From Saprospiraceae bacterium (lineage in GTDB: Bacteria; Bacteroidota; Bacteroidia; Chitinophagales; Saprospiraceae): a stretch of DNA of 64,000 nucleotides. The position numbers were made by a program, and so were the translations under genes. The stretch's first letter is position 1. Every line of letters starts with the position of its first letter. A model generated the notes under the pieces. That model saw only the letters and a program-made list of their open reading frames with translations, did not search any database and was not told where the DNA came from. The stretch is from the NCBI GenBank assembly GCA_958295895.1, contig CATQHI010000002.1, forward strand, positions 186,001 through 250,000, read 5' to 3'. Positions 12,574-62,109 of the stretch are shown here, one piece after another.

Positions 12574-12657
12574 GGGCGGGGACGCAGGTGCAAAGGTTCG
12601 CGCACAGCAACAGAAATCGCATGCCGGGTAGTTGTTCCCGCACCTGCGGCCCCGCCC
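12574..12657. repeat. two facing copies of the dispersed GC-rich motif
   Basis: A forward copy, GGGCGGGGACGCAGGTGCAA (12574-12593, one mismatch), and an exact reverse copy, GCACCTGCGGCCCCGCCC (12640-12657), lie about 46 bp apart as an inverted pair. They sit between the convergent DUF4143 and T9SS-cargo genes and could form a strong hairpin in either transcript. A 12622-start minus-strand reading frame with a signal-like N-terminus overlaps the pair; I do not call it a gene. Confidence 0.85.
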
Positions 12658-12684
12658 CTTTTTTTGTCGGCCCTACGCTGCGGT

Positions 12685-15234
12685 TCAGCGCACAATCACC
12701 CGCCGGCGTGCCGTAGGACGGCCGTCACCACTAACGACGAGAAAATAGGCACCGGCGGGTAGCTCACCCAGCGACAGCGCATAGCGGTTACGTACACCCC
12801 TAACTGCCCGTAACCGCTGCCCGGAGAGACTATAAACGGCCAAATCATAGGACCCCGCCGCTGACGGTAGCTCCACGGTGAGTAGATCGGTGGTCGGGTT
12901 AGGATATACTTCAACGGGTATCCCGTCAAAATTCGACAGGGTCTCGTCAGACAGCAGAATATCATCCTGCTCCAAATAGGTTCCACACCGGCGCGTACTA
13001 GACCCTAAATACTGCAGCACCACCGACTGAGGGCCAGCCTGAGTGCTGATATCATCAAGGTCGAACGGTACGCGCTCCACGTAAACAGGCCCCGGATTTG
13101 CATCCAGCCCAGCTTGGTCAAAGCCGCAGGTGTCATTATCCGCAAAGTTTGTGGGCGTAGACAGTCGCTGATGAAACAGCCCACAGCTGTCGCGGAAGAC
13201 CTTCAGTACATCCGAGTACTCCGCTCCGGAGCGAGTACTGTCCTGGCGAGCGCCCGGTTGGCGGAACATTGCTTCGGGTAGCCGTGGCTGAGAAAACGTG
13301 AATACCGTATCTAGCGCGAACGGAACCCTCACGGCCTGCTCGTAACGGTAAAGATCGGCTGCCACTTCGTAGGTGTACATTCCAGCCTGAGAGGAATCCA
13401 CCGCCAGAACCACCACCGTAAAGAAACTTCCGGCAAACCCTTCCCGGCCGACGAAGGGTTCGTCTAAGTAATAAGGGTTAGAGGCCGCAATCTGAAAGGT
13501 ATCCCCCACCTGCGCCAGTCCGTAGCTAGCTGTCAACGGGAGTTGTACACCCAGCGCCGGCTCGCTCAGACCCGCCAGGGTGAGGGGCAACCCTTCCTGT
13601 CCGATCCGGTAAAACCGGCTACCATCCACTAGTCCGGCGTGTTTGGCGACGGTCACCGTAGGGCCGGCCGCATCCCCCTCCTCCGTAAAGAAGCCGATAG
13701 CTTTCAGGGTGTCAGTCATACCCAGTACCGTAGCTGGAGTTTCTGACAAGACTTCCGCATAGAGCCTAACTCCCGAGCTGTCACGGGCCACCCAGCGGGT
13801 ACCCACCGCGGCAGCTTGGTAGAGTACGAGTGGTGCATCCGCACCAAAGTGCATGACGGTGCTGTCCGCTGTCTGGCAGATGCGGTAGCCAAAGGGCGAG
13901 GGCACCTTAATCACACAGCTCCCATCTTCGTGGTATACTTCCTCGAGGGAGCCGTAAAGCTCACCGCACCCGAGACTATCGAGCTTCACCCCATAGAACT
14001 CGGTGTCGAATCCAAACGTACGCGAACTGAAGTCTGGATTTCCGTACAGGTACTGTACCCCGGGGCGGAAGAGCTGATAATCGGTTGCGGCGGCGGGCGA
14101 CGGCGGGGACGCCGGTGCCACGACTTTGATGGACACGGTACGCACCGTGGCCAGTCCCGTAGGGGCCGGGGGGCCGTTATCCTTCGCACGAAGAACGACA
14201 AAGTACGCCTGCTTGCTGATGTCGGCGAAGGTGGGGGTCCAACGAAAGGTTTTCCGTAGAGGATCGGCTTGTATATTTTCTGTAGGCTGAAAAGTAGCCG
14301 GATTATCGGCTAACTCGAAGGGCCGACCACCGGCCGTCAGCTCCACCTGCTGATCCTCGGAAGGGGAACCCGTGGCTACTACTTCAAATTCTACTACCTC
14401 ACCAGCGACCACACTGATCTCCTGCTGCGCCACTTCCATGCCGGGGGGCTGGTTCATGCAGTCATCAACGAATAGCTGTAGGTCCCGTACAAGCGTATCC
14501 AGGGCAATGCCGTTACGGAACGACTTGACCACGTAGGTGAGGTTGTACTCGCCCGGTAGCGTGGGCTTGTCCCAGGTAATTTGCCCGGTACGGGGGTCGA
14601 TGGAGATAATTCCGTTGGAACCAGCTACCGCGTTGGGCAGCACGTAATTGGGGATCTCGGCACGGGCCCCATAGGTAGGAATGGTAAACTCAAACGCCAA
14701 ACTGTCGCCGTCTACATCAAAGGCACCGGGGTTGTGGGTCCATACCGAACCGATACATGTATTGTCGGTCGGATCCTGAGTGAGCTCCGGTGAGCTATTG
14801 CACCCACCATTCAGAACCGGATTGACCAGCGCAAAGGAGGTAAATACACTAAACGGGATATTCAGCGAGCGGGGGATGTTACGTATGCCGCGTACCCGGT
14901 TTACATCCTCAAAGCTCAGGACGTAGCGTCCAAAACTCACGTACCGGTGGCACAGCGTATACTCGTTACGCTGGACTCCGGGCGTTACTATAGTAATCTG
15001 GGTCCGAGCGATCATCTCACTAGTACCGTCCCCCCAGTCGAGTAGCAGGCTGTCTCGGTCTACCTCCGTCTGTATGGTTTCGGTGTAGGTGATGATGGTG
15101 GCGCAGGCCGTAAGCTGATCAGCGGGGCTATTGCAGCCGGCGGTGCGGACGATAATCTCGCCGGCGCGGTTGTGGGTAGCCAAAAGCAGGGTGGGAAGAA
15201 AAGCGAAGAAAGTGAGTATAAGGCGTAGACACAT
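12685..15234 (-). CDS. secreted protein with type IX secretion C-terminal sorting domain
   Basis: This 849-residue protein has a signal peptide (MCLRLILTFFAFLPTLLLA). The N-terminal region starting THNRAGEIIVRTAG and containing TLCHRYVSFGRYVLSFED is common in large surface proteins of Bacteroidota, and cadherin/Ig-like segments follow (FDVDGDSLAFEFTIPTYGA, GEYNLTYVVKSFRNG). The final 75 residues form a type A sorting domain (VEVYPNPTTDLLTVELP, YDLAVYSLSGQRL, ELPAGAYFLVVSGDG), which directs export through the type IX system and surface attachment. Its target or binding partner is unknown. It is the last gene of a minus-strand surface-protein cluster, about 100 bp after the DUF4249 gene. Confidence 0.88.
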   Translation of the reverse strand: MCLRLILTFFAFLPTLLLATHNRAGEIIVRTAGCNSPADQLTACATIITYTETIQTEVDRDSLLLDWGDGTSEMIARTQITIVTPGVQRNEYTLCHRYVSFGRYVLSFEDVNRVRGIRNIPRSLNIPFSVFTSFALVNPVLNGGCNSSPELTQDPTDNTCIGSVWTHNPGAFDVDGDSLAFEFTIPTYGARAEIPNYVLPNAVAGSNGIISIDPRTGQITWDKPTLPGEYNLTYVVKSFRNGIALDTLVRDLQLFVDDCMNQPPGMEVAQQEISVVAGEVVEFEVVATGSPSEDQQVELTAGGRPFELADNPATFQPTENIQADPLRKTFRWTPTFADISKQAYFVVLRAKDNGPPAPTGLATVRTVSIKVVAPASPPSPAAATDYQLFRPGVQYLYGNPDFSSRTFGFDTEFYGVKLDSLGCGELYGSLEEVYHEDGSCVIKVPSPFGYRICQTADSTVMHFGADAPLVLYQAAAVGTRWVARDSSGVRLYAEVLSETPATVLGMTDTLKAIGFFTEEGDAAGPTVTVAKHAGLVDGSRFYRIGQEGLPLTLAGLSEPALGVQLPLTASYGLAQVGDTFQIAASNPYYLDEPFVGREGFAGSFFTVVVLAVDSSQAGMYTYEVAADLYRYEQAVRVPFALDTVFTFSQPRLPEAMFRQPGARQDSTRSGAEYSDVLKVFRDSCGLFHQRLSTPTNFADNDTCGFDQAGLDANPGPVYVERVPFDLDDISTQAGPQSVVLQYLGSSTRRCGTYLEQDDILLSDETLSNFDGIPVEVYPNPTTDLLTVELPSAAGSYDLAVYSLSGQRLRAVRGVRNRYALSLGELPAGAYFLVVSGDGRPTARRRVIVR

Positions 15235-15333
15235 GTGAAGTCAGTTCATGAGAGTTGGCCGGGGAAAAGGCCGGTTCCTAGAAGCAACGCGTGAATTTTG
15301 GATTGCTTGTGCCCAATACAGAGTGATCAAATC

Positions 15334-24488: not shown

Positions 24489-24509
24489 GGGCGGGGCCGC
24501 AGGTGCAAA
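24489..24509 (+). repeat. dispersed GC-rich motif, exact copy
   Basis: An exact 20/20 copy of GGGCGGGGCCGCAGGTGCAA, followed by A, lies 66 bp before the serine hydrolase start and in the same direction. The rest of the 206-bp gap between the divergent genes shows nothing else distinctive. Confidence 0.9.
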
Positions 24510-25990: not shown

Positions 25991-26017
25991 AGCGCTTCCG
26001 CCAAATTTACGTCCCCC

Positions 26018-26035
26018 GCACCCGCGACCCCGCCC
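26018..26035 (-). repeat. dispersed GC-rich motif, diverged copy
   Basis: GCACCCGCGACCCCGCCC differs from the reverse consensus at two positions. It lies between the serine hydrolase stop and the nadE promoter. Confidence 0.6.
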
Positions 26036-29429: not shown

Positions 29430-30269
29430 ATGCAACAAACAACCCTAATCACCGGTGTAAGCTCCGGGATCGGCCTAACCACCGCCAAGTACCTCCTCCA
29501 GCGCGGCTACACCGTCTACGGCAGCCTCCGGGGCGGGAACGCAGGTGCGGACCAACTTGCCAAGTACCCCACCTTCACCCCCCTCACCTTCGACGTCACC
29601 GACCGACCGGCCATCCACGCCGCCGTGCAACAGATTCGGGAGACCGGCCACCAGCTCACGGGGGTGGTCAACAACGCCGGCGTCGCCATTAGCGGACCGG
29701 TAGAAACCCTCAGCGAGGCGCAGTACCGCAAGCAATTCGACGTAAATGTGTTCGGGCTGCTGGCCGTGTGTCAGGAGACGCTGCCGCTGCTCCACGCTGC
29801 CCAAGAAGCCGGCCTCAGCCCCCGCATCGTTAACGTAGGCAGTGTGTCCGGCTACCTCACTTCCCCCTTTACCACCCTATACTCGGCCTCCAAATTTGCC
29901 GTAGAGGCCCTCACCGATGGGATGCGCCGCGAGCTCCTCCCCTTCGGTATCGACGTGATCAGCATTGCCCCCGGCCCGGTCAAAACCCCCATCTGGGCCA
30001 AGGGCCGCGAGCAGACCGCGGCCTACCGCGGTACTCGCTACGAGAAAGTACTGGAAAAGCTCGGCCCCTACACCGAAGCGGCTGAAGCGGATGGCGTGGA
30101 GCCGGAGGTAGTAGCAGAAGCGATCTACAAAGCCCTCACCGACGAAAAGCCAAACCCTAACGTACTGGTCATGAAGCGCGGCTGGCTCGTGAAGCTGCTA
30201 CGCCTGACGCCCAAGCGCTTCCAGGATAGGTTCTTTCTGAAGCGGCTGGCGGAGAATCGGCGGTACTAA
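29430..30269 (+). CDS. short-chain dehydrogenase/reductase (SDR)
   Basis: This 279-residue classical SDR uses NAD(P)H. The cofactor motif TGVSSGIGLTTAKYL lies at residues 8-22, the structural NNAGVAISG near 90 and the catalytic Ser and YxxxK in VGSVSGYL and YSASKFAVEAL. The arginine-rich VYGSLRGG after the second strand suggests NADPH preference. Residues 34-40 (GGNAGAD) are encoded by a diverged copy of the dispersed GC-rich motif. The substrate cannot be told from sequence. A flavin reductase gene follows 9 bp downstream, so the two are probably one transcript. Confidence 0.93.
   Translation: MQQTTLITGVSSGIGLTTAKYLLQRGYTVYGSLRGGNAGADQLAKYPTFTPLTFDVTDRPAIHAAVQQIRETGHQLTGVVNNAGVAISGPVETLSEAQYRKQFDVNVFGLLAVCQETLPLLHAAQEAGLSPRIVNVGSVSGYLTSPFTTLYSASKFAVEALTDGMRRELLPFGIDVISIAPGPVKTPIWAKGREQTAAYRGTRYEKVLEKLGPYTEAAEADGVEPEVVAEAIYKALTDEKPNPNVLVMKRGWLVKLLRLTPKRFQDRFFLKRLAENRRY
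29531..29548 (+). repeat. dispersed GC-rich motif inside the SDR gene
   Basis: GGGCGGGAACGCAGGTGC matches the consensus at 16 of 18 positions and encodes part of GGNAGAD. Confidence 0.6.
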
Positions 30270-30938: not shown

Positions 30939-32576
30939 ATGTCATTCCGTAATAAGGTTCTGGGCGGGGCCGCAGGTGCAATGCTCCTCGTGGGGCTCAC
31001 CGCTACGACCCTGGCTCCCGTCAACGATAAGTTCTTCGAGATCATGAAGGCCATCGAGGTATACACCAACGTGTATAAAGAGGTAAACACCTACTACGTC
31101 GACGAGATCGAGCCCAATAAACTGATGCGCACCGGTATCGAGGCCATGGTGGAGAGCCTGGACCCCTACACCAACTACATCAGCGAGACCGACGTGGAGA
31201 CCGCCCGCCTACAGCAGAGCGGACAGTATCAGGGCATTGGCGCCGAGATCGAATACATCGACAGCCTGCCGACCATCCTGACATTGTATAAAGATCAACC
31301 CGCCGATCAGGCCGGTCTCCGTACGGGCGACCGCCTGCTACAGGTAGACGGCCGCGAGACCGCCCAGTACAACCGCGAGCAACTGGAGGAGATCATGCGC
31401 GGCTTCCCCGGTACCATCATGGAGCTGACCGTGGACCGGCCCGGCGAGGGCACTCAGCAACTACAACTTACGCGTGGAGACGTGGATATTCCTAACGTCC
31501 CCTACTACGGGATGCTGGAACAAAACGTGGGCTACGTAGCGTTGACCACCTTCACCCAGGAGGCGGCCAAGAATGTACGTGATGCCGTCAGCGAGCTACG
31601 GGCCGAGCACCCCGACATGACCGGCGTCGTACTCGACCTACGCGGCAACGGCGGTGGACTGCTGAACGAGGCCGTCGACATCGTCAACATCTTCGTACCC
31701 AAGGGCGAGACCATCGTGACCACGAAGGGTAAGGTGCGCGACTGGAACCGCAGCTACGAGACCAAGGGCAACCCACTGGATACGGACATTCCGGTAGCCG
31801 TGCTCATCAACCACCGCTCGGCCTCGGCCTCGGAGATCGTCTCGGGGGCGCTGCAGGACCTGGATCGCGGCGTCCTGATCGGCCAGCGCAGCTACGGCAA
31901 GGGGCTGGTGCAGAACATCATGGAAACGGGCTACGGCAGCCGGGTCAAGATCACTACGGCGAAGTACTACATCCCTAGCCAGCGCTGCATTCAGGCCATC
32001 GAATACCGCGACGGCAAGCCCTACGATATTCCCGATGCCCAGCGCGCCGAGTTCAAGACCCGCGGCGGCCGTACCGTACTGGACGGCGGTGGCGTAGCTC
32101 CCGACATCGAGGTGAACGTGCTGGGTCAGCATAACGTAGCTCAGGGCCTGCTGGAGGATTACATCGTCTTCGACTTCGTGAACGAGTGGGTGCGCGATCA
32201 CCCGACGATCGACTCGGTGGCCGATTTTCACTTCCAGGACTGGGACAAGTTCGAGGCCTTCCTCAACCGGGCTGATTTCAACTTCACTTCCCAGGCCGAG
32301 GAGCTACTGGAGGATGCTGCCGCCCGGGCTAAGGAAGAGGGCTACGACATCTCCGCCGAGCTGGCTTCGATCCAGGAGAAGGTCGACCGCGAGCAGGCTA
32401 CGGCCATCGCCAGCCTGAAGGAGGAGATCATCAAGATCATTGAAAAGGAGATCGCCGGCCGCTATTACTACCAGCGGGGGCAGGTGCAGATGGGCCTGCG
32501 TAATGACCAGGAGGTGCAGGAGGCCATTGCGGTGCTGAATGACGGGGCGCGGTATGCGGAACTACTCAGTAAATAA
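30939..32576 (+). CDS. S41 family C-terminal processing peptidase
   Basis: This 545-residue periplasmic protease is anchored or exported by an N-terminal hydrophobic segment (AMLLVGLTATTLAPV). It has a PDZ domain (about 90-180, DQPADQAGLRTGDRLLQVDG) and the S41 catalytic domain: GVVLDLRGNGGGLLNEAV, nucleophile Ser in NHRSASASEIVSGALQDL and Lys in GQRSYGKGLVQN. A long charged C-terminal helix region follows. Such proteases trim or degrade periplasmic proteins by their C-termini. Residues 8-15 (GGAAGA) are encoded by an exact copy of the dispersed motif. Its stop shares a base with the next start (TAATG). Confidence 0.95.
   Translation: MSFRNKVLGGAAGAMLLVGLTATTLAPVNDKFFEIMKAIEVYTNVYKEVNTYYVDEIEPNKLMRTGIEAMVESLDPYTNYISETDVETARLQQSGQYQGIGAEIEYIDSLPTILTLYKDQPADQAGLRTGDRLLQVDGRETAQYNREQLEEIMRGFPGTIMELTVDRPGEGTQQLQLTRGDVDIPNVPYYGMLEQNVGYVALTTFTQEAAKNVRDAVSELRAEHPDMTGVVLDLRGNGGGLLNEAVDIVNIFVPKGETIVTTKGKVRDWNRSYETKGNPLDTDIPVAVLINHRSASASEIVSGALQDLDRGVLIGQRSYGKGLVQNIMETGYGSRVKITTAKYYIPSQRCIQAIEYRDGKPYDIPDAQRAEFKTRGGRTVLDGGGVAPDIEVNVLGQHNVAQGLLEDYIVFDFVNEWVRDHPTIDSVADFHFQDWDKFEAFLNRADFNFTSQAEELLEDAAARAKEEGYDISAELASIQEKVDREQATAIASLKEEIIKIIEKEIAGRYYYQRGQVQMGLRNDQEVQEAIAVLNDGARYAELLSK
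30962..30981 (+). repeat. dispersed GC-rich motif, exact copy inside the S41 peptidase gene
   Basis: GGGCGGGGCCGCAGGTGCAA occupies codons 8-15 and encodes the GGAAGA stretch before the hydrophobic segment. Confidence 0.9.
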
Positions 32577-38659: not shown

Positions 38660-40011
38660 TTATCTGACGATCTGCCCGGTCACCCGCAGCAGCTCTGTCT
38701 CCGTCTGCTTCAGATTCAGCAGGGCGTCGAGAAGTTGGAATTCCGCATTAGCGTAGTTGAGCTGGATCTGCCGGTAGTCGAAACTGTTGATGGTGCCGCC
38801 CCTAAAGCGTTCTTCAGCGATCTCCAAGTTACGCTCGGCGTTCTCAATGAGCTCCTGGGTAATACCGATGATGCGGGTCTGGTTATCGTAGAGAGCAATG
38901 GTATTCTGTAGGGCGGTGCGGAGCTGCTGCTGGACCGACTGGTAGTCGAGCTGGGCGGTAATCTCCTCCAGCCGGGCCGACTGGATGCGCACCCGTCGGT
39001 TACCCCCGTCGAAGAGCAGGTAGCTGGCCGTGAAGCCTAGGTTGCCCGCCAGGGTTCGCGCGGCCACCCCCGGGAGTTCCTGCTCCCGCCCCGGCTGGTC
39101 GCCGCCGAACTCAAAGGTCTGGGTGCCGGTCTGCACTCCAATGTCGTAGCTCGTACTAGCCCCGATGCCGAAGGTGGGTGCCCGCTCGGTTTCGATGAGC
39201 CGGGTCTGTAGGGCGGCCAGGTCCCGGTTAATGAGCAGGTTCTGAAGGTTGCGGTTACTGGCCAGGAGGCGGGCCTCGAGGTCGGCGGGGTCGTAGGCAG
39301 TTTCCTCGTAGGTGAGCTCGGTGGTGAGGTTGACGGGCTGGTCGAGTGTTTCCTCGCCGAGCAATTGAAGGAGATTGCGTGCAGCATTTTCGTAGTTCAC
39401 CTGCTGCACGACCAGATTAGTAGAGTCCGAGAGATAGGCATCACGCGCCTGCAACTCATCGAAGGTGCCGCCCTGGCCGAACTCCCGCCGCACCTGCTGG
39501 TACTCGATGCGGTCGCGGCTCAGGGCCAGTACCCGGCGGCGCACCTCGATCTGCTCGCGCTGCACCACCGCGTCGTAGTAGGCGTCGATGATGTCCCTGT
39601 ACGGTGTTCTCGATCTGCAGTTGGAGCTGCCCCTCGCTGAGGTCGGCCAGGGTCTCCAGCCGTTCCTTATTGATGGCGATGCGGCCGCCGTTAAACAGCA
39701 CCCAGTTGAGCTGTACGATGGGGGCTACGGTATAGCTGGTGGTGGTGCTCTGGACCACGATGCTAGCAGGGTTACTCTGGTTGCGGTAGCCCACGCCGGG
39801 GCTCAGACCTACCGTGATCGTGGGGGTACTTCTGCGTCAGGGCGTAGTCGTCATTATTCTCTGCGACGGCCAGCTGGCTTTCGGCGATGCGGATCTGAAA
39901 GTTACGCTCCAGGCCGCGCTGAATGGCATCACTCAGGCTCACACTCAGGGTGTCCTGGGCGCGGACGCAGGTGCAAGCAACTAGTGCGAGGAAGAGGCTG
40001 AGCTTGGACAT
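38660..40011 (-). pseudogene. TolC family outer membrane efflux protein, two frameshifts
   Basis: Three consecutive reading frames together encode a normal-length TolC, about 450 codons. They comprise a signal peptide (MSKLSLFLALVACTCVRAQ), SLSDAIQRGLERNFQIRIAE, then YRNQSNPASIVVQ...VLFNGGRIAINKERLETLA, then DIIDAYYDAVVQREQIE to the end LRVTGQIVR. The frame changes at the GGGGG run 39822-39826, where one base fewer restores QKYPTITVGL. It changes again at CCC 39595-39597, where one fewer restores VQDIIDAYY. Both are homopolymers, so a sequencing or assembly error is as likely as real inactivation. A dispersed-motif copy forms part of the signal peptide. Confidence 0.85.
39957..39976 (+). repeat. 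dispersed GC-rich motif inside the tolC signal peptide
   Basis: GGGCGCGGACGCAGGTGCAA has two mismatches to the consensus. On the coding strand it encodes the ACTCVRAQ part of the signal peptide. Confidence 0.65.
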
Positions 40012-40069
40012 GCCGGGGTACTGGTCGTGAAAACTGGCGCAAGGTACGGGAACGAAGGTCGGGCCGTCT

Positions 40070-40078
40070 TATCTTTTG
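40070..40078 (+). promoter_or_regulatory. candidate -7 box for comEC
   Basis: TATCTTTTG is a near match to TAnnTTTG (one extra T), 5 bp before the likely ATG at 40084. It would give a very short or absent leader. Confidence 0.35.
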
Positions 40079-40083
40079 CCCCA

Positions 40084-42195
40084 ATGTTCGTGTCCTCCCC
40101 CCGACCCCGTATCCCCTGGGCTACCGTGCCGCTACTGCTGCCCTTGTTAGCCCTGGGTGGGGGGATTATCCTGGGAGCCTACCTCGACTATGATCACGCC
40201 TGGATCTTTCTCGGTACGACGGGCGGGCTCTCACTACTCGCCACCGCTTTGCACCTGCGGCCCCGCCCTACTGCTGTACTACTCTGGCTGGCGCTGTTTG
40301 CGCTGGGGGGCTGGTATGCGGACGTGCGGCATCCACCGAATGATGAGACGCACTTTAGTCACCACTATATGGAGGGGGATCAGCTGCTGGTGGAGGTACG
40401 GAGTGTGCGGGAAGGGAAGCGGCGGCAAAATGTGGAAGCAGAGGTTACGGCACTGATACGTGGTAAGGAGCAACTACCTGCGCGTGGAAAGTTGGTGGCC
40501 TACGTGGCCGGTGATACAGTGCGGGTAGGTGACCGGCTGCTGGTAGCTAGTACGGTGGATACGGTACCGGGGCCGCTCAATCCTCACGCTTCCGACTATG
40601 CGGGTTACCTGGCGGACAAGAATATTTTTCACCGCAGCTTCGTGGACTCGATCGAGTGGCTACGGGTAGGTACTACAACGGGCTTTTCTCTACGCGCCTT
40701 TGGGGAGCGGTCGCGGGAAGCCTGGTTCGGAAGTCTGCGGCCCTACCTAGCGGGGGATGATCTGGCAGTTGCCGCGGCGCTAATCATGGGCAAGAAGGAC
40801 CTGCTGGGGGCGGAAGTAAAATCAGCCTACGCCGATACCGGGGCTATCCACGTGCTGGCGGTATCGGGGCTGCACGTAGGCATCCTGGCCCTGATCGTGA
40901 TGCAGCTCCTGCGCCTGCTGGTGCCCCCCCGGCCCTTCTGGCTGGCGCTGCGCACGGGGCTGACGATCCTGCTGGTCTGGTACTTCGCGCTCGTGACCGG
41001 CCTGAGTGCCTCGGTGCAGCGGGCGGCCCTGATGGTGACCGTGGTGCTGATCGGCAAGCAGCTCAACCGCAACAATAGCATCTTTAATCTACTGGCCATT
41101 GCCGCCCTAGTTATGCTGCTGGTGGAGCCGAAGCAACTGTTTCAGGTGGGCTTTCAGCTGAGTTTCGCGGCGGTGGCGGGGATCGCGCTTTTCACCCGTA
41201 GGTTGCAGCGGCTGGTGTACCTGCCCGGAAAGCTGAGTGTGCTATGGGATGCCATCGCGGTATCGACGGCCGCCCAGCTCGGTACCCTGCCGCTTTCGCT
41301 CTACTATTTCGGGCAGTTTCCGCTGTATTTCATGCTGAGCGGCACGCTGGTGATCGTATTCGCCTACCTGGTACTGGGGCTGGGACTGTTGCACGGCTTC
41401 CTGGCCCTAGTGGGGGTGAGCGGGTCGGGCCTCTGGCCGACCGGCACCCTGCTGGAATGGGTGGTGAGCGTACAGAACGCCTTCATTTTCTACTGCCGCC
41501 AGCTGCCCGGAGCTACCCTCCAGCTGGCTGACTTCGGCTGGGTATCGGCGGTGGGGCTGTACTTACTTATTGGCTGTCTGGCTTACCTCGCCTTTCGGCC
41601 CAGTCACCGGGGGCGGTGGGTAGCCATGGGGGTGGCGGGGCTGCTAGTAGCGTACTGGACACTGGGGCCGGTGTGGTCACCCGCTCCACCCCAGTTCACA
41701 ATTTATCACCTGCCGCGGGCTAGTCTAATCGATGTGTACGACGGGCGGCGGGGGGTAGCGGTGGGTGATAGCGTGGCGCAGGATGACCTTGACTTTAACG
41801 TGCTGCCGGCGCGGCGGGTGCTGGGGATAGATTTCAGCGCTCCCCTGCCGCTGGAGCAGGATACTAGTCTTGCTGGCGTGACGGTGCATAGTCCCCTACT
41901 GCGGCTACTCGATCGGCGGGTGCTGGTGTTGGATGGGACGCAGGACTGGCGGGGGGTAGCTCAGTTACCAGAGGTAGACCTGGTGCTGGTGCGTGGCGGG
42001 GTGCGCCCGAATCGGGTACCAGAATTACCAGCGGGTGTGCCGGTGGTAGTGGATGGGTCGAATGCGCCTTACGTGGGCCGGCTGTGGCGGGAGCGGTACG
42101 GCGGGGTGCACGTGACTGGGGTGGATGGGGCTTACGTCGAACTTCGTCCGCCGAGTTCCGACGTAGTCGGCTCGTCGGCCGAATCATTCGACTAG
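40084..42195 (+). CDS. comEC: ComEC/Rec2 family competence protein
   Basis: This protein of about 703 residues is predicted to form the inner-membrane channel for single-stranded DNA during natural transformation. It has N-terminal helices, a DUF4131-type soluble region (about 100-200) and the Competence domain with VLAVSGLHVGILALIV, LVTGLSASVQRAALM and FQVGFQLSFAAVAGIALF. The C-terminal region (about 560-703) lacks the histidine motifs of a metallo-beta-lactamase domain and seems reduced. I favour ATG 40084 (MFVSSPRPRIPW) over 40027 because of the -7 box between them. An exact dispersed-motif copy encodes LHLRPRP at residues 55-61. It is divergent from tolC. The 3' end is made of CGTCCGCCGA-family repeat sequence. 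Confidence 0.9.
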   Translation: MFVSSPRPRIPWATVPLLLPLLALGGGIILGAYLDYDHAWIFLGTTGGLSLLATALHLRPRPTAVLLWLALFALGGWYADVRHPPNDETHFSHHYMEGDQLLVEVRSVREGKRRQNVEAEVTALIRGKEQLPARGKLVAYVAGDTVRVGDRLLVASTVDTVPGPLNPHASDYAGYLADKNIFHRSFVDSIEWLRVGTTTGFSLRAFGERSREAWFGSLRPYLAGDDLAVAAALIMGKKDLLGAEVKSAYADTGAIHVLAVSGLHVGILALIVMQLLRLLVPPRPFWLALRTGLTILLVWYFALVTGLSASVQRAALMVTVVLIGKQLNRNNSIFNLLAIAALVMLLVEPKQLFQVGFQLSFAAVAGIALFTRRLQRLVYLPGKLSVLWDAIAVSTAAQLGTLPLSLYYFGQFPLYFMLSGTLVIVFAYLVLGLGLLHGFLALVGVSGSGLWPTGTLLEWVVSVQNAFIFYCRQLPGATLQLADFGWVSAVGLYLLIGCLAYLAFRPSHRGRWVAMGVAGLLVAYWTLGPVWSPAPPQFTIYHLPRASLIDVYDGRRGVAVGDSVAQDDLDFNVLPARRVLGIDFSAPLPLEQDTSLAGVTVHSPLLRLLDRRVLVLDGTQDWRGVAQLPEVDLVLVRGGVRPNRVPELPAGVPVVVDGSNAPYVGRLWRERYGGVHVTGVDGAYVELRPPSSDVVGSSAESFD
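40248..40268 (-). repeat. dispersed GC-rich motif, exact copy inside comEC
   Basis: TTGCACCTGCGGCCCCGCCC is an exact reverse copy; on the coding strand it gives LHLRPRP between two membrane helices. Confidence 0.9.
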
Positions 42196-42827: not shown

Positions 42828-42847
42828 GGGCGGGGCCGCGGGTGCAA
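42828..42847 (+). repeat. dispersed GC-rich motif in the frr leader
   Basis: GGGCGGGGCCGCGGGTGCAA has one mismatch and lies between the predicted frr transcription start and its ATG. Confidence 0.85.
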
Positions 42848-42919: not shown

Positions 42920-44200
42920 CTAACCGACCGGATCCAGTCGGTCCTTCCCCACGTAGCTATGGAGCACTTCCGGTAGTAAAATGCCCTGCTCGGTCTGCTT
43001 GTTCTCCAGCAGGGCGGCAATGATGCGGGGTAGGGCCAGGGCACTGCCGTTGAGGGTGTGGACCAGCTCGTTGCCCTGCTCGGCGCGGTAGCGGAGTTTG
43101 AGGCGGTTGCTCTGGAAGGTCTCGAAGTTGGACACGCTGCTGACCTCCAGCCAGCGCTGCTGGGCCGCGCTCCAGACCTCGAAGTCATAGGTCATGGCCG
43201 CCGTGAAGCCCATATCACCGCCGCAGAGGCGCAGGATGCGGTAGGGTAGTTCGAGGGCATCGAGCAGACCGCCGACGTGGGCGACCATCTCGTCTAGCTT
43301 GGCGTAGCTCTCCTCGGGGCGGGCCAGTTGTACAATCTCGACCTTGTCGAACTGGTGGACGCGGTTGAGCCCGCGCACGTGGGCCCCGTAGCTACCCGCC
43401 TCGCGCCGGAAGCAGGGGGTGTAGCCGGTAAGCTGAATGGGGAGCTGGTCAGCGTCAAGTAGCTCGCCCCGGTAGAGGTTGGTGAGGGGGACCTCGGCGG
43501 TGGGGATGAGGTAAAGGTCGTCTTCGGTGATGTAATACATCTGGCCCTCCTTGTCGGGGAGCTGGCCGGTGCCGCGGGCGGTGTCCTCGTTGACCAGCAG
43601 CGGGGGGGCATACTCGGTGTAGCCGGCGGCGGTGTTGCGGTCCAGAAAGAAATTGACCAGCGCGCGCTGTAGGCGGGCCCCCTGTCCGGTGAAGACGGGA
43701 AAGCCGCTGCCGGTGGTACGCACGCCTAGTTCCAGACTGAAAATGCCGTAGGTCTCAGCCAGCTCCCAGTGGGGTTTGGCGTCCGGGCCGAGAGCAGGTA
43801 GCTCGCCGGGGTAGTCCTGGTAGACCTCGTTATCCTCGGCGCTGCTGCCGGCCGGGACCAGGTGGTAGGGGACATTGGGGAGTTGGAGTAGGGTGGTTTC
43901 GAGTTCCTCCAGGGTTGCCCGTAGTTCGTCCTCCGCACCTGCGACCGCGCCCTTGATCTCGTTGACGCGTTCGCGTAGCGCGTTGGCTTCGTTCTTACGG
44001 CCGGATTTGAATAGGGTGCCGATCTCGGTTGATAGGGTATTACGCTCGGCCAGCAGGGTGTCGTTTGAGGTCTGAAGTTCCTTACGCTTGTCGTCGAGGG
44101 TAACGACGCGATCTACCATAATGGCGGCGTCGATACCGCGTTTGCGCAGGCCTTCGAGGACCCGCTGGCGGTCGTCGCGCAGGGTATGTACTAGGAGCAT
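42920..44200 (-). CDS. serS: seryl-tRNA synthetase
   Basis: This 426-residue class II synthetase charges tRNA-Ser. The N-terminal coiled-coil arm covers about residues 30-105 and the catalytic core shows motif 2 (GYTPCFRREAGSYGAHVRGLNRVHQFDKVE) and motif 3 (NGSALALPRIIAALLENKQ). Part of the arm, KGAVAGAEDEL at about residues 81-91, is encoded by a diverged dispersed-motif copy. The start (MLLVHTLRDDRQRVLEGL) agrees with other SerRS proteins. A perfect -7 box lies 22 bp upstream. Confidence 0.97.
   Translation of the reverse strand: MLLVHTLRDDRQRVLEGLRKRGIDAAIMVDRVVTLDDKRKELQTSNDTLLAERNTLSTEIGTLFKSGRKNEANALRERVNEIKGAVAGAEDELRATLEELETTLLQLPNVPYHLVPAGSSAEDNEVYQDYPGELPALGPDAKPHWELAETYGIFSLELGVRTTGSGFPVFTGQGARLQRALVNFFLDRNTAAGYTEYAPPLLVNEDTARGTGQLPDKEGQMYYITEDDLYLIPTAEVPLTNLYRGELLDADQLPIQLTGYTPCFRREAGSYGAHVRGLNRVHQFDKVEIVQLARPEESYAKLDEMVAHVGGLLDALELPYRILRLCGGDMGFTAAMTYDFEVWSAAQQRWLEVSSVSNFETFQSNRLKLRYRAEQGNELVHTLNGSALALPRIIAALLENKQTEQGILLPEVLHSYVGKDRLDPVG
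43935..43952 (-). repeat. dispersed GC-rich motif inside serS
   Basis: GCACCTGCGACCGCGCCC differs from the reverse consensus at two of 18 positions and encodes GAVAGA in the tRNA-binding arm of SerRS. Confidence 0.6.
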
Positions 44201-47176: not shown

Positions 47177-50100
47177 CTACGTAGCATCATCCAGCCCGTA
47201 CACCTCCTCCGTCCGCTCCAACGGCACCTCATCCGTCAGGTCCTGCACGAAGCGGCACCAGGCGCAGTCCGGCTTGTCGCAGCCGTCGAACTGTTGCTCT
47301 TGGATGGCCTCCCAGGTATCGCGTAGAATTTTGCGCAGCGCGTCCGTATCCTGCTGATTAAGCTCCAGTCGCTCTTCCGGCTGCTCGCCGTTGGGGTCGG
47401 TGAGTAGGTAGCTGATGCGGCCCTCGCGCACGCGCCGAATGGTGCCCGGTCGGTTATCAAAAAGCAACTTATAGAACGTAAGCTGCCGCCAGTAGTCGCC
47501 ACCGTGGGGATTGCGCTCGGTGGGACGGCGTAGCTTGTTTCCTCCACTAGTACTGGTTTTATAGTCTACCACCCGCACGTAGGCATCACTGATCACGTCC
47601 ACCCGGTCGATGATGCCGGTCAGGGGAATACCGTCGACCTCGGCGTTGCGGATGAGGTATTCGATCTCTACGTCGTGCACCCATGATTTATGGTAGCGGT
47701 CGTAGTAGGTGCCGAGCTCGCGGCGGCGCGTTCCAGGCGGTTGTGGTAGCCGCGGGGTGGTGAGCTGTCCACGGCGCTGGGCCAGGGCGATCTCGAAATT
47801 ATACACCAGCTCTTCTTTACTCGGAAACACCTGTGCCGGATCGCGCTTCATGCGCAGGAAGTAGTTCTGCAGCGCCTCGTGAAGGGCCGAGCCGTAGAGG
47901 GTCCGCTCCCGTTCGCGATCGGGTACGCGTAGGAGCTTTTCGTAGTAGAAGCGTAGGGGGCAATCGAGGTAGGCGTAGAGGGCACTGACGCTGAGGCGGA
48001 AGTCTTCCAGCAGCTCGGCAACGGCGGAACGTTCCAGCACGGGGTAGCGGGCTTTATCCTTGGGTTGCAGTTGCAGGTAGGCGAGCTCGGCCAGGGTACC
48101 GGCATCCAGATTAGCCTCACGTACCTCCACCCCACCGGTCTCGATGAGCTCATCAACAAAGGCCACCTGCTGCTGCATCTTATCCTTAACACTAAGCTCG
48201 GCGCAGGACAGGATTACACCGGAGCGGGCACGGGTCAGGGCCACGAAGAACAGCCGGCGGCGGGCCTCCTCCTCGTCTTCGGTACCGGCGTAGGTCAGCG
48301 TATCGGGCAGTTTGAAGCGATTCTGGGCGCGGCCACCCCCGCCCGGACCCCAGGCCCGCTCGGAGCAGTCGAGCATCCACACCTTTTCAAATTCAAGCCC
48401 CTTGGCACTGTGGGCGGTGACCAGCAGTACGGCATCGGCCTGATCGAGGTGGGAGCGCAGGGGCAGGGCAATGCGGTTACCGTCCATCTGCCCCAGCGTA
48501 TCGAGTAGGTCGGTGAGGGTAAGGCGGGGGCGGCGGGCGATCTCGCGTAGCACGAAGTCGGTAAAGGTGGCTACGTGCTGTAGCAACTCGGCCCGATTCG
48601 GATCGCGCAGTACGGAGGCCAGCAATCCGGAGCCGTTCAGCACCCATTCGACGTACTCCGGCAGGGGCAGACTACCGACGAGTCCGATGGCCTCCTCCAA
48701 CCAGTCGGCCACGCGGCGGAGGTCGGCGGGGGCCTCCAGTCCGTACGGGTAGAGCGCATCGGCCCGTAGGTACTCCCGCCAGCTGGGTAGGCGGCCCTCG
48801 CGGTCGAGGGTGTCGAGGCGGCCGAGGTTGAGCACGGAAAGGTCGTGGGGCAGTAGCCCGAAGCAGCGAAAGTGGAGCACCCGAAACAGCAGATGCTCGC
48901 CCGTCCCCGGCCGCTCCTGCTCCGACTGCAGGTACCGGAGCAGCTCGCGCAATTGTCTTACGGGACGGCCGTCGAGCACGTTCGGACGGCGCTTACTGCG
49001 GTAGGGGATACCGGCCCGCTCCAGCAGGTGGCGCAGCAGATCGGCCTGACTGTGCTTGGCGTAGATCACGGCTATCTCCGACCAGGGCACTCCCGTGTCG
49101 TGCCAGTGCTTGAGCTGGCCTACTAAATAACCGGTCTCCTGGCGGTGATCGGTGAAGGACAAGTAAGTTGCACCTGCGGCCCCGCCCTCATGGTTGCTCC
49201 TGAGGCGCTTGTCGATCTGGTGCTGGGGCAGACGGTCGCCGATACGCAGGGTGTTGCGGTCGATGAGGGCGCCGGCACCGTCGAGGATAGACTGCGTACT
49301 GCGGTAGTTCTCATTGAGGGTCACGATGGTCAGGTCGCGGGCGTAGCGGTGGTGAAAGTCGACCATGGCGTTGAGCCGCGCCCCCTGAAACTCGTAGATG
49401 GCCTGGTCGTCATCGCCGACGATGAAAACGTTAGGATTATCCCAGTAGTCGGTGAGGTGGCGGATGATGCGGTCCTGACTCCCATTCGTATCCTGAAACT
49501 CGTCAATGAGCAGGTAGCGGTACCGCTCCTGGTAGCTTAGCAGCAGACTAGGGTGATCGTGAAAAGCGCGCAGCACCCAGCCGATCATGTCGCCGTAGTC
49601 GTAGCGCCGCTGCTCGCGGAGGGCCTCCTGGTACTTAGGGAAGAGGGCAACGGCGCTGGTGAGCTTGTCCATCCGCAGGCGCTCCTCGGCGATCTTGCCG
49701 GTGTGGGGGTCGCCCTTTTGCTTGTCCTTATACTTGCGTTGGTAGGTGAAGTCGGGATGGGTCTCCAGGCCGTCCACGTAGGTCTGGATGCGCTGCTGTA
49801 GCTCGTCCTCCGTCCAGTTTTCGGCCTTCATCTGGGCGAAAAGATCCTGTAAGTGGTCCTCGTAGTGGTAGGCCTCGTGGTAGCCCAGGCGGAGGGCATC
49901 GGTCTGCGGCAACTGATCCATAAGCCCGCGGATGATACGGATGCGCTCCAGCTCTGAAAGGGGCTCCAGACCGGGGCGGCCGAAGTAGTGCAGGTTCTGC
50001 TGGATGACGTTGCTACAGAAACTGTGAAAGGTGTAGATACCGACGCGGTGGGCTTCGGGGCCGATGAACTTCAGTAGCCGCTGCCGCATGGCCTTCACGC

Positions 50101-50326
50101 CGGCGTCGGTGAAGGTGAGGCAGAGGATGTTGTGGGCCCCGGCGTCGGTCCGTAGGAGGATATTACCGATGCGGGCGGCCAGGAGGTGGGTCTTCCCGGT
50201 ACCGGGGCCGGCCAGGACCATGACGGGGCCCTCGATGGTGTCCACGGCAGTACGCTGTCCCTCGTTCAGGCGGGCGAGCTCCGCGCGGAAACCGGCGTTG
50301 TAATCGTATAATCTGCGGTGGGCCAT
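47177..50326 (-). CDS. UvrD/Rep-type DNA helicase fused to a PD-(D/E)XK nuclease
   Basis: This protein has about 1049 residues. Superfamily 1A helicase motifs are VLAGPGTGKTHLLAARIGN (Walker A), YLLIDEFQDTNGSQDRII, FIVGDDDQAIYEFQGARL, VTLNENYRSTQSILDGAG and VTAHSAKGLEFEKVWMLDCS. The C-terminal 270 residues form a RecB/AddB-like nuclease (LYGSALHEALQNYF, GIIDRVDVISDAYVRVVDYK). It carries Cys in AYLDCPLRFYY and the terminal CDKPDCAWCRF, the pattern of a 4Fe-4S cluster as in AddB. It probably processes broken DNA ends. ATG 50326 (MAHRRLYDYNAGF) is favoured over an in-frame TTG at 50344. An exact dispersed-motif copy encodes GGAAGA near residue 382. It lies 13 bp after prs. Confidence 0.93.
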   Translation of the reverse strand: MAHRRLYDYNAGFRAELARLNEGQRTAVDTIEGPVMVLAGPGTGKTHLLAARIGNILLRTDAGAHNILCLTFTDAGVKAMRQRLLKFIGPEAHRVGIYTFHSFCSNVIQQNLHYFGRPGLEPLSELERIRIIRGLMDQLPQTDALRLGYHEAYHYEDHLQDLFAQMKAENWTEDELQQRIQTYVDGLETHPDFTYQRKYKDKQKGDPHTGKIAEERLRMDKLTSAVALFPKYQEALREQRRYDYGDMIGWVLRAFHDHPSLLLSYQERYRYLLIDEFQDTNGSQDRIIRHLTDYWDNPNVFIVGDDDQAIYEFQGARLNAMVDFHHRYARDLTIVTLNENYRSTQSILDGAGALIDRNTLRIGDRLPQHQIDKRLRSNHEGGAAGATYLSFTDHRQETGYLVGQLKHWHDTGVPWSEIAVIYAKHSQADLLRHLLERAGIPYRSKRRPNVLDGRPVRQLRELLRYLQSEQERPGTGEHLLFRVLHFRCFGLLPHDLSVLNLGRLDTLDREGRLPSWREYLRADALYPYGLEAPADLRRVADWLEEAIGLVGSLPLPEYVEWVLNGSGLLASVLRDPNRAELLQHVATFTDFVLREIARRPRLTLTDLLDTLGQMDGNRIALPLRSHLDQADAVLLVTAHSAKGLEFEKVWMLDCSERAWGPGGGGRAQNRFKLPDTLTYAGTEDEEEARRRLFFVALTRARSGVILSCAELSVKDKMQQQVAFVDELIETGGVEVREANLDAGTLAELAYLQLQPKDKARYPVLERSAVAELLEDFRLSVSALYAYLDCPLRFYYEKLLRVPDRERERTLYGSALHEALQNYFLRMKRDPAQVFPSKEELVYNFEIALAQRRGQLTTPRLPQPPGTRRRELGTYYDRYHKSWVHDVEIEYLIRNAEVDGIPLTGIIDRVDVISDAYVRVVDYKTSTSGGNKLRRPTERNPHGGDYWRQLTFYKLLFDNRPGTIRRVREGRISYLLTDPNGEQPEERLELNQQDTDALRKILRDTWEAIQEQQFDGCDKPDCAWCRFVQDLTDEVPLERTEEVYGLDDAT
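49168..49187 (-). repeat. dispersed GC-rich motif, exact copy inside the helicase gene
   Basis: TTGCACCTGCGGCCCCGCCC is an exact reverse copy and encodes EGGAAGAT in an inter-motif loop of the helicase. Confidence 0.9.
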
Positions 50327-50357
50327 CGGACCTGTTGAAGACAACTCAGCGCCGCCG

Positions 50358-51319: not shown

Positions 51320-51417
51320 GATTTGCGATATGCGATTCTTGATTCTCGATATGCGATTTGGCTACCGCATGGGGGAGGTGTTATAGGTGTGATAGGGGGC
51401 GGGGCCGCAGGTGCAAA
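51320..51417. repeat. AT-rich GATATGCGATT repeat and an exact dispersed GC-rich motif upstream of prs
   Basis: GCGATATGCGATT and CTCGATATGCGATT recur within 51327-51360. An exact GGGCGGGGCCGCAGGTGCAA copy follows at 51397-51416. A similar AT-rich unit, TTTACATTTTACGATTTG, occurs at about 42787-42804 upstream of frr. Confidence 0.75.
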
Positions 51418-53410: not shown

Positions 53411-53429
53411 GGGCGGGGCCGCAGGTGCA
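53411..53429 (+). repeat. dispersed GC-rich motif, exact copy over 19 bases
   Basis: GGGCGGGGCCGCAGGTGCA lies between the divergent GCS2-CBS and DUF4143 genes. Confidence 0.9.
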
Positions 53430-53453
53430 GGTCTGGTCGAATTGTATATCTCA

Positions 53454-56314: not shown

Positions 56315-57304
56315 CTACAACGTACCCGCCGCCTCCCGGAACACCACCGCCAGCACCACCTGCCCCACCGCCCGCAGCGTCCGCTTGTCGATCACATCCA
56401 TATTATCGTCGCCGGTGTGCCAGTGAGTGGGAAAGGAGTGCCCGCCTTCCTGTTGTAAGTTGATGATGTCAATGGTGGGGATACCAGCGATGGTATTAAT
56501 AAAGTAATGATCGTCGGTGATAGTACCGCCACGCGCATTGACGTAGTAGTTACCGTAGCCCATCTGATCGCCGAGCTGCCAGACCTTGCGCACTACATCC
56601 TTGGCGTACTGCTCGGAGTAGCCCTCGACGAGGAAAGTAGCATCGCGTGCTCCGACCATGTCGAGTAGGATACCGAAGCGGGGCTTGGGGGCCGGCACGT
56701 TCTTGGCGTAGTACTGCGCGCCGAGGGCGTAGCTGTTGGTATTGCTAGGCTTGCCGTAGTCTTCAGCGTCGAGAAGTATAATGTCCACACCGATGTCGGG
56801 GGTGTTGAGGCCGAGCTGGCGGGCTACTTCCAGAAGCACGCCTACCCCGCTGGCCCCGTCGTCGGCACCGTTGACGATGGCGTTGGGGTCATCCTCCAGG
56901 TCGCTATCGGCAAAGGGGCGGGTGTCCCAGTGCGCGGCCAGTAGGATACGGTCCTCCAACTCGGGGGCGTAGCGGGCGATGATGTTAGTGGAGCGCAGGT
57001 TCGTGCCGTCGAAGGCTCGGGCTTCAAAGTCCTGCTCAATCACCTCGGCGCCGAAGGCTTTCAGTTTTTCGATCAACCACTCCCTGGTCTGCCGGTGGGC
57101 ATCGGTATTCACTACCCGGGGACCGAAGTTGACCTGCTGCTCGACGTAGGCGTAGGCGCTGTCGCGGTCGAACTTGGGGACGGGCTTGGCGTCGCGGGGG
57201 GTTGCGGGCGGGGCCGCAGGTGCGGGGTTTTCGGCGAGCGGGGCCGAGTCATTGCGGCACGCAGCGATACTTAGTAAAAGTAGTAAGATCAGGAGTCTAT
57301 GCAA
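56315..57304 (-). CDS. M28 family metallopeptidase lipoprotein (glutaminyl cyclase-like)
   Basis: This 329-residue exported enzyme has the lipoprotein signal MHRLLILLLLLSIAACRNDS, with the Cys at residue 16. A Pro/Ala linker (NPAPAAPPATP) is encoded by a dispersed-motif copy. The M28 domain has zinc ligands in LLAAHWDTRPFADSD, IVNGADDGASGVGVLLEVAR, ILLDAEDYG and ITDDHYFINTIAGIPTI. The single-zinc layout HWD...E...H resembles bacterial glutaminyl cyclases as well as aminopeptidases, so either activity is possible. Confidence 0.9.
   Translation of the reverse strand: MHRLLILLLLLSIAACRNDSAPLAENPAPAAPPATPRDAKPVPKFDRDSAYAYVEQQVNFGPRVVNTDAHRQTREWLIEKLKAFGAEVIEQDFEARAFDGTNLRSTNIIARYAPELEDRILLAAHWDTRPFADSDLEDDPNAIVNGADDGASGVGVLLEVARQLGLNTPDIGVDIILLDAEDYGKPSNTNSYALGAQYYAKNVPAPKPRFGILLDMVGARDATFLVEGYSEQYAKDVVRKVWQLGDQMGYGNYYVNARGGTITDDHYFINTIAGIPTIDIINLQQEGGHSFPTHWHTGDDNMDVIDKRTLRAVGQVVLAVVFREAAGTL
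57206..57223 (+). repeat. dispersed GC-rich motif inside the M28 peptidase gene
   Basis: GGGCGGGGCCGCAGGTGC is an exact 18-base copy; on the coding strand it encodes APAAPP of the linker after the lipobox. Confidence 0.88.
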
Positions 57305-58784: not shown

Positions 58785-58786
58785 TC

Positions 58787-60788: not shown

Positions 60789-60792
60789 GGGA

Positions 60793-60800: not shown

Positions 60801-60988
60801 GCTGGCCCTCGTCCGCCGAGACCGACCAGGCGGGGTTAAAGAATACCTAAAGCAGGGTACGAGGCCGCAAAATGAAGCCGCCCGGCGGTTTCTTAGCGTA
60901 CCGGCCACCCCACCGCACCGATCGCCTCATTTCCCGAACCGGTAATGCGCGAGTCTGCCCCGGGCGGCGTGGGTGTCCGGCTTTACGC

Positions 60989-62020
60989 TCAGGCCGGCAG
61001 GTCGAAGAGCCTGCGGAAATCGTCGAGCTGTTTCGGATTACCGACTACGATGAAACTGCCCTCGGGACCCAGTACGGTATCCGGACCAGGATTGACCTGA
61101 TACTTACCACCCTGCAGCCGGTGACCGATGATATTAACGCCGGTAGTAGAGCGCAGATTCAGTTCCATGATGGGCTTGCCGCGATATTTGTCCGGTAGCT
61201 GGTCGTAGGTCAGCTCCTCAAAGCCAATATCGGCCGAGAGCTCGTTGGTGATAAAGCTGAAGAACTCCACCGCCCCTGGCTTCGAGATTAGGGTAGCCAT
61301 GTAAAAGCCTCCAATCTGCTCGGGCATAATGACGTGACTGGCCCCGGCCTTGATCATTTTCTGCCGGCCACGTACCTCCTTGGCCCGGCTTACGATGCGT
61401 AGCGCCGGATTCAGATCCTTGGAGGAAAGCACAATGAAGAGATTGTCACTATCGTCGTTGAGCGCGGTGATCAGACTACTGGCCCGCTCGATCCCCGCCG
61501 CGAAGAGCGCATCGTCGTGGGTGGCATCGTCGATGACGTAGAGGATATCCTCTTCCTCCTCGATCAAATCGGAAAGCTTCTCCTTATTGAGTTCGACGAT
61601 CACGTAGGGGTGGTCGTGCAGCCGCAGGTGGCTTACGATCTCCCGCCCGTACTTACCGTAGCCACACACGATGGTATGCCCCTCCATTTTCTCGATCCTC
61701 GCCTGGATCCGGTTGTACTGCATGGTTTCGAAGAGTTTGCCGTCAATAACATAATACGAAAAAGCCGCCAGCACGTAGGCTACAATACCGATGTTAAACA
61801 CCACCAGCGCCGACACAAACAGCCGCCCCGCATTGGAAAGCGGTTGTACCTCCCCAAAGCCCACCGTCGATATCGTGATCACCGACATGTAGAAGGCGTC
61901 GATCAGCGTGTACCCCTCGATCAGCATCAGCCCCACCGTGCCCACCGCCATGGTGATAACCAGCAGCAGCAGCGCCAGGCGCAGATCCAGAGCCGTGGAG
62001 GTAAAGCGAAAACGCATCAT
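60989..62020 (-). CDS. potassium channel family protein with TrkA_N and TrkA_C domains
   Basis: This 343-residue MthK-like channel has two transmembrane helices flanking a pore loop with the selectivity filter ISTVGFGEVQPLS (residues about 52-64). A RCK/TrkA_N Rossmann domain (TIVCGYGKYGREIVSHLRLH, YVIVELNKEKLSDLIEEE, ITALNDDSDNLFIVLSSK) and a TrkA_C domain (YRGKPIMELNLRSTTGVNII) follow. The RCK part probably gates the pore in response to nucleotides, calcium or pH. It is transcribed leftwards from a repeat-rich gap. Confidence 0.94.
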   Translation of the reverse strand: MMRFRFTSTALDLRLALLLLVITMAVGTVGLMLIEGYTLIDAFYMSVITISTVGFGEVQPLSNAGRLFVSALVVFNIGIVAYVLAAFSYYVIDGKLFETMQYNRIQARIEKMEGHTIVCGYGKYGREIVSHLRLHDHPYVIVELNKEKLSDLIEEEEDILYVIDDATHDDALFAAGIERASSLITALNDDSDNLFIVLSSKDLNPALRIVSRAKEVRGRQKMIKAGASHVIMPEQIGGFYMATLISKPGAVEFFSFITNELSADIGFEELTYDQLPDKYRGKPIMELNLRSTTGVNIIGHRLQGGKYQVNPGPDTVLGPEGSFIVVGNPKQLDDFRRLFDLPA

Positions 62021-62028
62021 TTAGTAGT

Positions 62029-62109
62029 AGAGTAGTTCGGTAGTAGGGTAGTCTGGGCGACGGAGGCCGAAAGCTACCGCTTAAATACTCCGCACCTGCG
62101 GCCCCGCCC
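62029..62109. repeat. TAGTTCGGTAGT repeat and exact dispersed GC-rich motif upstream of the channel gene
   Basis: TAGTTCGGTAGTAGGGTAG at about 62033 matches the arms of the hsdM/hsdS inverted repeat. GCACCTGCGGCCCCGCCC (62092-62109) is an exact reverse copy of the dispersed motif. The 165-bp gap has no other clear element. Confidence 0.8.

Follow-up and report, generated by a model that had tools for sequence, protein, structure and literature searches.

The 20-base word and its excess over chance

The window analysed here is a stretch of 64,000 nucleotides from a Saprospiraceae bacterium (assembly GCA_958295895.1, contig CATQHI010000002.1, positions 186,001 to 250,000). Along with genes for a ComEC-family protein, a seryl-tRNA synthetase, a helicase/nuclease and peptidases, it carries scattered copies of a GC-rich 20-base word, GGGCGGGGCCGCAGGTGCAA (Table 1). 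We count 12 copies in the window at up to 3 mismatches, compared to a mean of 0.02 and a largest value of 1 in 100 dinucleotide-preserving shuffles. At up to 2 mismatches, the whole genome (4.77 Mb, 35 contigs) contains 551 copies, 294 on the forward strand and 257 on the reverse, and the same word read backwards is found 0 times. Because of this whole-genome excess and the empty reversed control, the word is neither a product of chance nor confined to the window. The initial annotation had judged it to be far beyond chance and had named a genome-wide count as a way to refute this; the count bears the claim out.

To describe the sites we used a profile trained on 860,786 bp of the organism's own genome, that is, on the genome that was then scanned. 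On the window and one contig the profile finds 171 sites, about one per 5 kb, compared to 2 with the reversed profile, and the density extrapolates to about 950 sites per genome. It finds 18 sites in the window, where it adds those at 4371 and 14101. The core is asymmetric, with 20 positions followed by a weak 3' tail that extends to about +15 (G at +2, GTGG around +6 to +9, and purines, at most 0.34 bits per position). The upstream side is weaker, reaching at most 0.19 bits at −4. The profile of own-genome sites shows no palindrome and no hairpin, in agreement with the initial view that the word is not an inverted-repeat element.

All eleven positions first listed as exact or near-exact copies are real, with amended starts for some on the minus strand: starts move 1-2 bases earlier where an 18-base core had been used (12638 and 62090), and 40249 had been miscounted by one. 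Four further copies had been described as having two mismatches, which is correct for 39957 (2 in 20); those at 26016, 29531 and 43933 have 4 in 20, of which 2 fall in the first 18. The copy described as partial exists at 2928, with 4 mismatches.

Table 1. Motif copies in the 64,000-nucleotide window, with the ComEC-family gene
Feature	Position	Strand	Mismatches and profile score	Context and state in relatives
Motif copy	2928..2947	-	4; score 20.8	Intergenic
Motif copy	4371..4390	+	5; score 21.0	Within gene 3033-4586
Motif copy	12574..12593	+	1	Intergenic; forms inverted pair with 12638
Motif copy	12638..12657	-	2	Intergenic
Motif copy	14101..14120	+	4; score 20.8	Within gene 12685-15234
Motif copy	24489..24508	+	Exact	Intergenic
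Motif copy	26016..26035	-	4	Intergenic
Motif copy	29531..29550	+	4	Within gene 29430-30269; not kept in G009
Motif copy	30962..30981	+	Exact	N-terminal stretch of S41 peptidase gene (long-ORF start 30939); recognisable in G009
Motif copy	39957..39976	+	2	Antisense in signal-peptide-like stretch (MSKLSLFLALVACTCVRAQ); recognisable in G009, G012, G016, G017
ComEC-family gene	40027-42195	+		Competence domain PF03772 (E 2.4e-55), DUF4131
Motif copy	40249..40268	-	Exact	Inside comEC; recognisable at orthologous place in G009, G012, G016, G017
Motif copy	42828..42847	+	1	Intergenic
Motif copy	43933..43952	-	4	Seryl-tRNA synthetase gene; kept in G009, not in G001, G007, G012, G016, G017
Motif copy	49168..49187	-	Exact	Variable linker of UvrD-helicase/PD-(D/E)XK nuclease gene 47177-50344; recognisable in G012, G016, G017; degraded in G009
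Motif copy	51397..51416	+	Exact	Intergenic
Motif copy	53411..53430	+	1	Intergenic
Motif copy	57206..57225	+	2	N-terminal linker of M28 peptidase gene; recognisable in G016, G017; degraded in G009, G012; not in G001, G007
Motif copy	62090..62109	-	2	Intergenic; not found at aligned place in G012, G017

Placement in genes, intergenic regions and along the chromosome

The 171 profile sites comprise 106 in genes, 57 in intergenic regions and 8 on edges, with intergenic DNA accounting for 10.7 % of the sequence (genes were called with a home-made open reading frame (ORF) caller). The word was rightly described at the outset as occurring in both orientations and in gaps as well as in genes. Within genes it is used in all six reading frames (30, 24, 23, 17, 9 and 3 sites), 50 times in sense and 56 times in antisense, and it encodes peptides as different as APAAP-type stretches, GAGPQVQ, GGAAGA, CTCGPA/CTCVRAQ and LHLRPRP. 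It is conceivable that a protein-level feature, such as a signal-peptide or linker peptide, produces the DNA word incidentally, given that 30 sites read xAPAxxx and 17 are in the CTCGPA/CTCVRA frame, 14 of them within the first 30 residues. The same DNA word is however present at 59 sites in the other four frames and at the 57 intergenic sites, and we give this explanation almost no weight.

The excess in intergenic DNA, together with an enrichment in the first 30 codons of genes (30 sites compared to 9.9 expected), is what one would look for in the binding site of a transcription factor, or another regulatory site, with a very large regulon. Such a role is improbable considering that the intergenic classes follow their lengths (27 tandem compared to 26.6 expected, 24 divergent compared to 20.3, 6 convergent compared to 10.1), that 51 of the 106 coding sites lie beyond codon 100 and that the two orientations are equally used. 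A promoter or terminator element was also considered and rejected, the intergenic classes showing no preference.

No strand bias is seen along the 797-kb contig C3, on which 81 plus and 72 minus sites are mixed in all well-filled bins; the most uneven 40-kb bin is 8:3 and no polar stretch is seen. The GC skew of this contig is too weak to mark its replichore. Site pairs within 300 bp of each other, in either orientation, number 11 of 152, for about 8.5 expected at random. The spacing has a coefficient of variation of 1.3 over the contig and of 0.83 without one 73-kb gap. This site-free stretch lies at about 230-303 kb and is mostly unaligned to the sampled stretches of the sister species G009; among ten of its proteins searched are a type I methylase subunit, a DDE transposase and a SusC/SusD pair.

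Conservation at orthologous sites

The motif is conserved at the DNA level at orthologous sites. We compared the 171 sites to 520 kb of G009, to which 70 sites are alignable, and count a site as shared when G009 has, less than 60 bases away, a sequence scoring at most 3 bits below the threshold of the scan. A sister copy in the same orientation is found at 52 of these 70 sites, while 28 of 3000 random loci have one. Identity to G009 averages 0.73 over the motif, compared to 0.63 over its flanks (Wilcoxon p about 1e-4). Between 40 and 480 kb of C3, aligned DNA has 64 sites over 326 kb (a density of 1.96 per 10 kb), unaligned DNA 8 over 114 kb (0.70) and its long runs 5 over 99 kb (0.50), where unaligned refers to the sampled G009 stretches and a counterpart may exist elsewhere in that genome.

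We extended the comparison to more relatives for 15 of the window's profile sites, against G009, G012, G016 and G017. Eight of the 15 align to at least one of these genomes. The sites at 39957 and 40249 are recognisable in all four, 49168 in three, 57206 in two, 43933 in one, and 30962 in the only one to which it aligns; 29531 and 62090 are aligned and not kept. The counterpart of 26016 in G009 is a 4-mismatch copy at stretch position 47618, placed by coordinates, with the alignment block starting beside the site.

These comparisons bear on the suggestion, made in the initial annotation, of a very small mobile repeat, which would be of the repetitive extragenic palindrome (REP/REPIN) or miniature inverted-repeat transposable element type and spread by a transposase. 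Hundreds of near-identical copies of a short GC-rich repeat resemble REP elements, and 18 of the 70 aligned sites are without a sister copy. REP/REPIN sequences are imperfect palindromes that form hairpins, are extragenic and are linked to a REP-associated tyrosine transposase (RAYT) of the Y1 family. The motif differs in that it has no hairpin, is used in frame inside genes and is shared at orthologous places. A family search gives Y1 matches in 9 of 9 genomes, which would suit a mobile repeat, yet whatever their motif copy number, including the word-free G011 and G001, which has 4 Y1 matches and 1 copy of the word. Clean 20-base insertions are absent among the 70 alignable sites; 2 lie mostly in a gap of the sister sequence, and both gaps are longer than the word and ragged. 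Together with the altered forms of the word found at some of the same sites in other species (see below), this leaves a mobile repeat very unlikely, and we no longer retain that suggestion.

Distribution and dialects

The 20-base word is bound to one genus, which we take to be Neolewinella. The plain word is present in 19 of 20 other genomes of the genus and, among 19 genomes outside it, in one, as a single copy. A degenerate pattern has at least one match in all 21 genus genomes, ranging from 1 in G011 to 969 in G006, with similar numbers on the two strands and 0 to 9 matches for the reversed pattern. In GTDB contigs the exact word is found in at least 79 stretches and, among the matches listed, all are titled Neolewinella or Lewinella, or belong to a metagenome-assembled genome titled 'Bacteroidia bacterium'. 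No related word is among the top-ranked words of the sister-genus samples G021 (94 kb), G022 (21 kb) and G023 (84 kb), which are other, partly tandem-looking repeats. In a 34.5-kb sample of G015 no clear word emerged.

Two species, G001 and G007, which form one clade with a support of 1.0, have 1 and 18 copies of the canonical word, respectively, at up to 2 mismatches. They carry instead GCGGCGGAGCGCAGGTAAA- and GCGCCGGAGCGC[AG]GG-like words, which in our alignment lack one base from the middle of the canonical word. Seeds of this dialect match 14 times in 120 kb and 27 times in 160 kb (the latter in G007), with 0 matches for the reversed controls. The tree is derived from two proteins, with several taxa represented by only one, and deeper branching within the organism's own clade is poorly supported (0.18 and 0.33). 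Other forms are GGGCGCTGCCGC[AG]GGTGC in G013 (7 in 60 kb) and, among the matches listed, mostly GGGCGCGG forms in G002 and G019. An inner core, CGC[A/G]GG, is common to the canonical word and the dialects. Refined profiles for G016 and G012 were blurred and left unused.

Five window sites are alignable to G001 and G007, and three of them carry the dialect in both species; 43933 and 57206 do not. The linker at 49168 contains an exact dialect word in both, the one in G001 being about 40 bases off the aligned column. At 39957 both have the dialect form with 1 mismatch, and at 40249 both have a shortened dialect-like form. For 53411, exact dialect words are found at the matching place in both species, 11-20 bases beyond the alignment blocks. 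Since dialect forms occupy orthologous sites, at least some sites have been rewritten in place.

G011 has an abundant word of its own, TTTTGRCTWNCAAAGTAGCAATG-like, with 46 sites in 108 kb, both coding and intergenic and some in close pairs. We considered this word as a further dialect and rejected it: its likeness to the 3' half of the motif is by eye only, and no copy is present in the linker of the UvrD-type gene of G011. Other short repeats are GTCGGCCGAC/AGGCTCGTCCGCCGAC in G017, AAGTAGGAAGTACGAACTA in G016 and CTAAAAGACTAA in G007. The window itself contains a separate AT-richer repeat (GATATGCGATT-like) at 51320-51372, which gives many 30-65 bp matches across the genus genomes; its 11-mer was not found in C3. 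A TolC/OEP-type gene at 38660-40011 on the minus strand is apparently split into ORFs 38660-39568 and 39772-40011, perhaps by a frameshift or a sequencing error.

Copies in temperate phages

Viral contigs scanned for GGGCGNGGNCGCNGGTGCAA yielded 31 stretches, a number that comes with no chance expectation and in which single matches in GC-rich contigs may be due to chance. Seventeen of these stretches, from 14 contigs, are related to each other. On one contig of 38.7 kb, of which 36.7 kb were read, the profile places 8 sites. A PHROGs search covered ten of its proteins and, because the matches include a tape measure, a terminase, a head maturation protease, a helicase and an integrase, we take it to be a temperate tailed phage. 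The density in this phage group, about one per 5 kb, is that of the host. When phage contigs less than 75 % identical are aligned, the word is conserved at 20 of 20 positions in 20 of 26 alignments, many of which share one site, and at 0.6 to 0.9 in the other six, with flanks about half identical. For comparison, the 9-mer of the Pasteurellaceae uptake signal sequence (USS) occurs 17 times in 32 kb of Haemophilus phage HP1, and its reversed control 3 times. A second phage-like contig, with terminase-, capsid- and tail-like ORFs recognised by eye, has two copies in the form used by the species of the window.

Conservation in phages at host density, like the conservation of orthologous chromosomal sites, would be accounted for if the word were bound inside the cell by a sequence-specific chromosome protein with a role in organisation, repair or the marking of self DNA against defence, phages carrying it for protection or replication. 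That no outer-membrane DNA route was found in the genomes tested (see below) also favours this explanation. Sites of known chromosome proteins are palindromic, polar or regional, and polar sites of the FtsK-orienting (KOPS) or Chi type show a strand bias by replichore. The motif is without a palindrome and C3 shows no polar stretch, its most uneven bin being 8:3. An intracellular mark is the less likely explanation in our estimate, although a serious one, and the chromosome-organising site that had been proposed at first survives in this form, weakened by those same two observations.

Candidate uptake machinery and comparison to known uptake sequences

In the reading that we favour, the motif serves Neolewinella as a self-recognition signal at the DNA level and most likely works as a DNA uptake sequence (DUS); on balance, we lean towards it. 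The initial annotation had listed a protein-binding or uptake signal among the possibilities, rightly in our view. We favour uptake because the excess, the permissive placement in all frames, the bias towards core DNA, the dialects, the phage copies and the bias towards gene termini match what is described for uptake sequences. These are reported to lie in permissive, faster-diverging regions (PMC2397512, PMC3630211), to be biased towards gene termini in Pasteurellaceae (PMC2346458) and to form clade-specific dialects (PMC3630211).

Two systems offer the closest likeness. The DUS of Neisseriaceae, which has dialects and is read by the minor pilin ComP, also occurs in hundreds to thousands of intergenic and intragenic copies in permissive regions, and is biased towards the core genome; its clade-specific dialects preserve an inner core, which for the motif is CGC[A/G]GG. 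The USS of Pasteurellaceae shares with the motif an asymmetric core with a weak one-sided extension, a bias towards gene termini and a temperate phage carrier (HP1); it differs in its unrelated sequence, its 9-bp core and its type IV pilus-based uptake. In common with both, the motif is a non-palindromic word in excess on both strands.

The ComEC-family product encoded in the window is likely the inner-membrane DNA channel; one motif copy lies inside its gene and another 0.3 kb away. We propose that a cell-surface protein would bind the 20-bp core and its weak 3' extension on free kin DNA and that the bound DNA would pass inward via ComEC. Recombination of this kin DNA would spread the word and maintain it in the core genome. 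If the preference of the reader shifted, the set of sites would drift to a new dialect, partly in place. Three parts of this proposal are inferred: a protein that reads the word, its action during uptake and the upkeep of the word by transformation drive.

Several observations weigh against uptake. Matches to ComEC in 14 of 14 and to DprA in 15 of 16 genomes searched are in line with uptake but do not discriminate, since of 14 control genomes 10 and 11, respectively, have them too. No convincing type IV pilus motor was recognised in a search with the motor family PF00437, which matched in all 14 genomes but weakly (best E 1.3e-5). The matches exceed the cut-off by little in 8 of the 14, and the best are confined to some 80-100 of the family's 370 positions, within ORFs of about 950 amino acids, none having the length of a pilus motor; we read them as unrelated ATPases. 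In Riemerella anatipestifer, uptake is reported to depend on a DUF5689 protein and the barrel next to it (PMC8459023). Of the motif- or dialect-bearing genomes searched, none of 9 has DUF5689 and none of 8 the Riemerella-type barrel. G011 and all 6 genomes searched outside the genus do have DUF5689, with weak matches in three of the 6, and the barrel occurs in G011, G021 and G022; in G011 and G022 the DUF5689 protein adjoins a TonB-type barrel. With this pair missing from the motif-bearing genomes tested, no outer-membrane DNA route is recognised. Because the motif-bearing genomes are one clade, the absence perhaps reflects a single event, in which the DNA route may have been replaced or uptake may have been lost; the latter would speak against our reading.

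The word also departs in form from known uptake signals, which are about 9-12 nt long (PMC12616744): its 20-bp core with a weak 3' tail compares to 10-12 bp for the DUS of Neisseriaceae, it is found in another phylum, and at about one per 5 kb it is sparser. The 18 sites not shared with G009 count on the same side, as does our literature search on the genus, which found no report of competence. In view of the pilus machinery and the length, we would say that the motif works like a DUS, not that it is one.

A literature search on Bacteroidota and this genus gave no recognisable description of the motif. The nearest is a k-mer table for Riemerella columbina, a naturally competent member of Bacteroidota with a reported preference for its own DNA, for which PMC7965970 gives A/T-rich k-mers only and no established motif.

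A broader statement can be made with somewhat greater assurance: the word is probably a self/non-self DNA signal with dialects, common to the bacteria and their temperate phages, whose reader would be unrelated to type IV pili and would act at the surface or within the cell. Rewriting into a dialect, combined with conservation in place between sister species, is a pattern so far described for the self-DNA recognition signals of a few other bacteria. The dialect of G001 and G007 constitutes a natural experiment for finding the reader protein. If the uptake reading is true, Neolewinella would represent a third, unrelated case, in another phylum and without a type IV pilus, and the self-tagging of DNA would have evolved repeatedly. 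Alternatively, should the word not serve uptake, the maintenance of 20 bp at hundreds of sites for some role inside the cell would be an even greater surprise.

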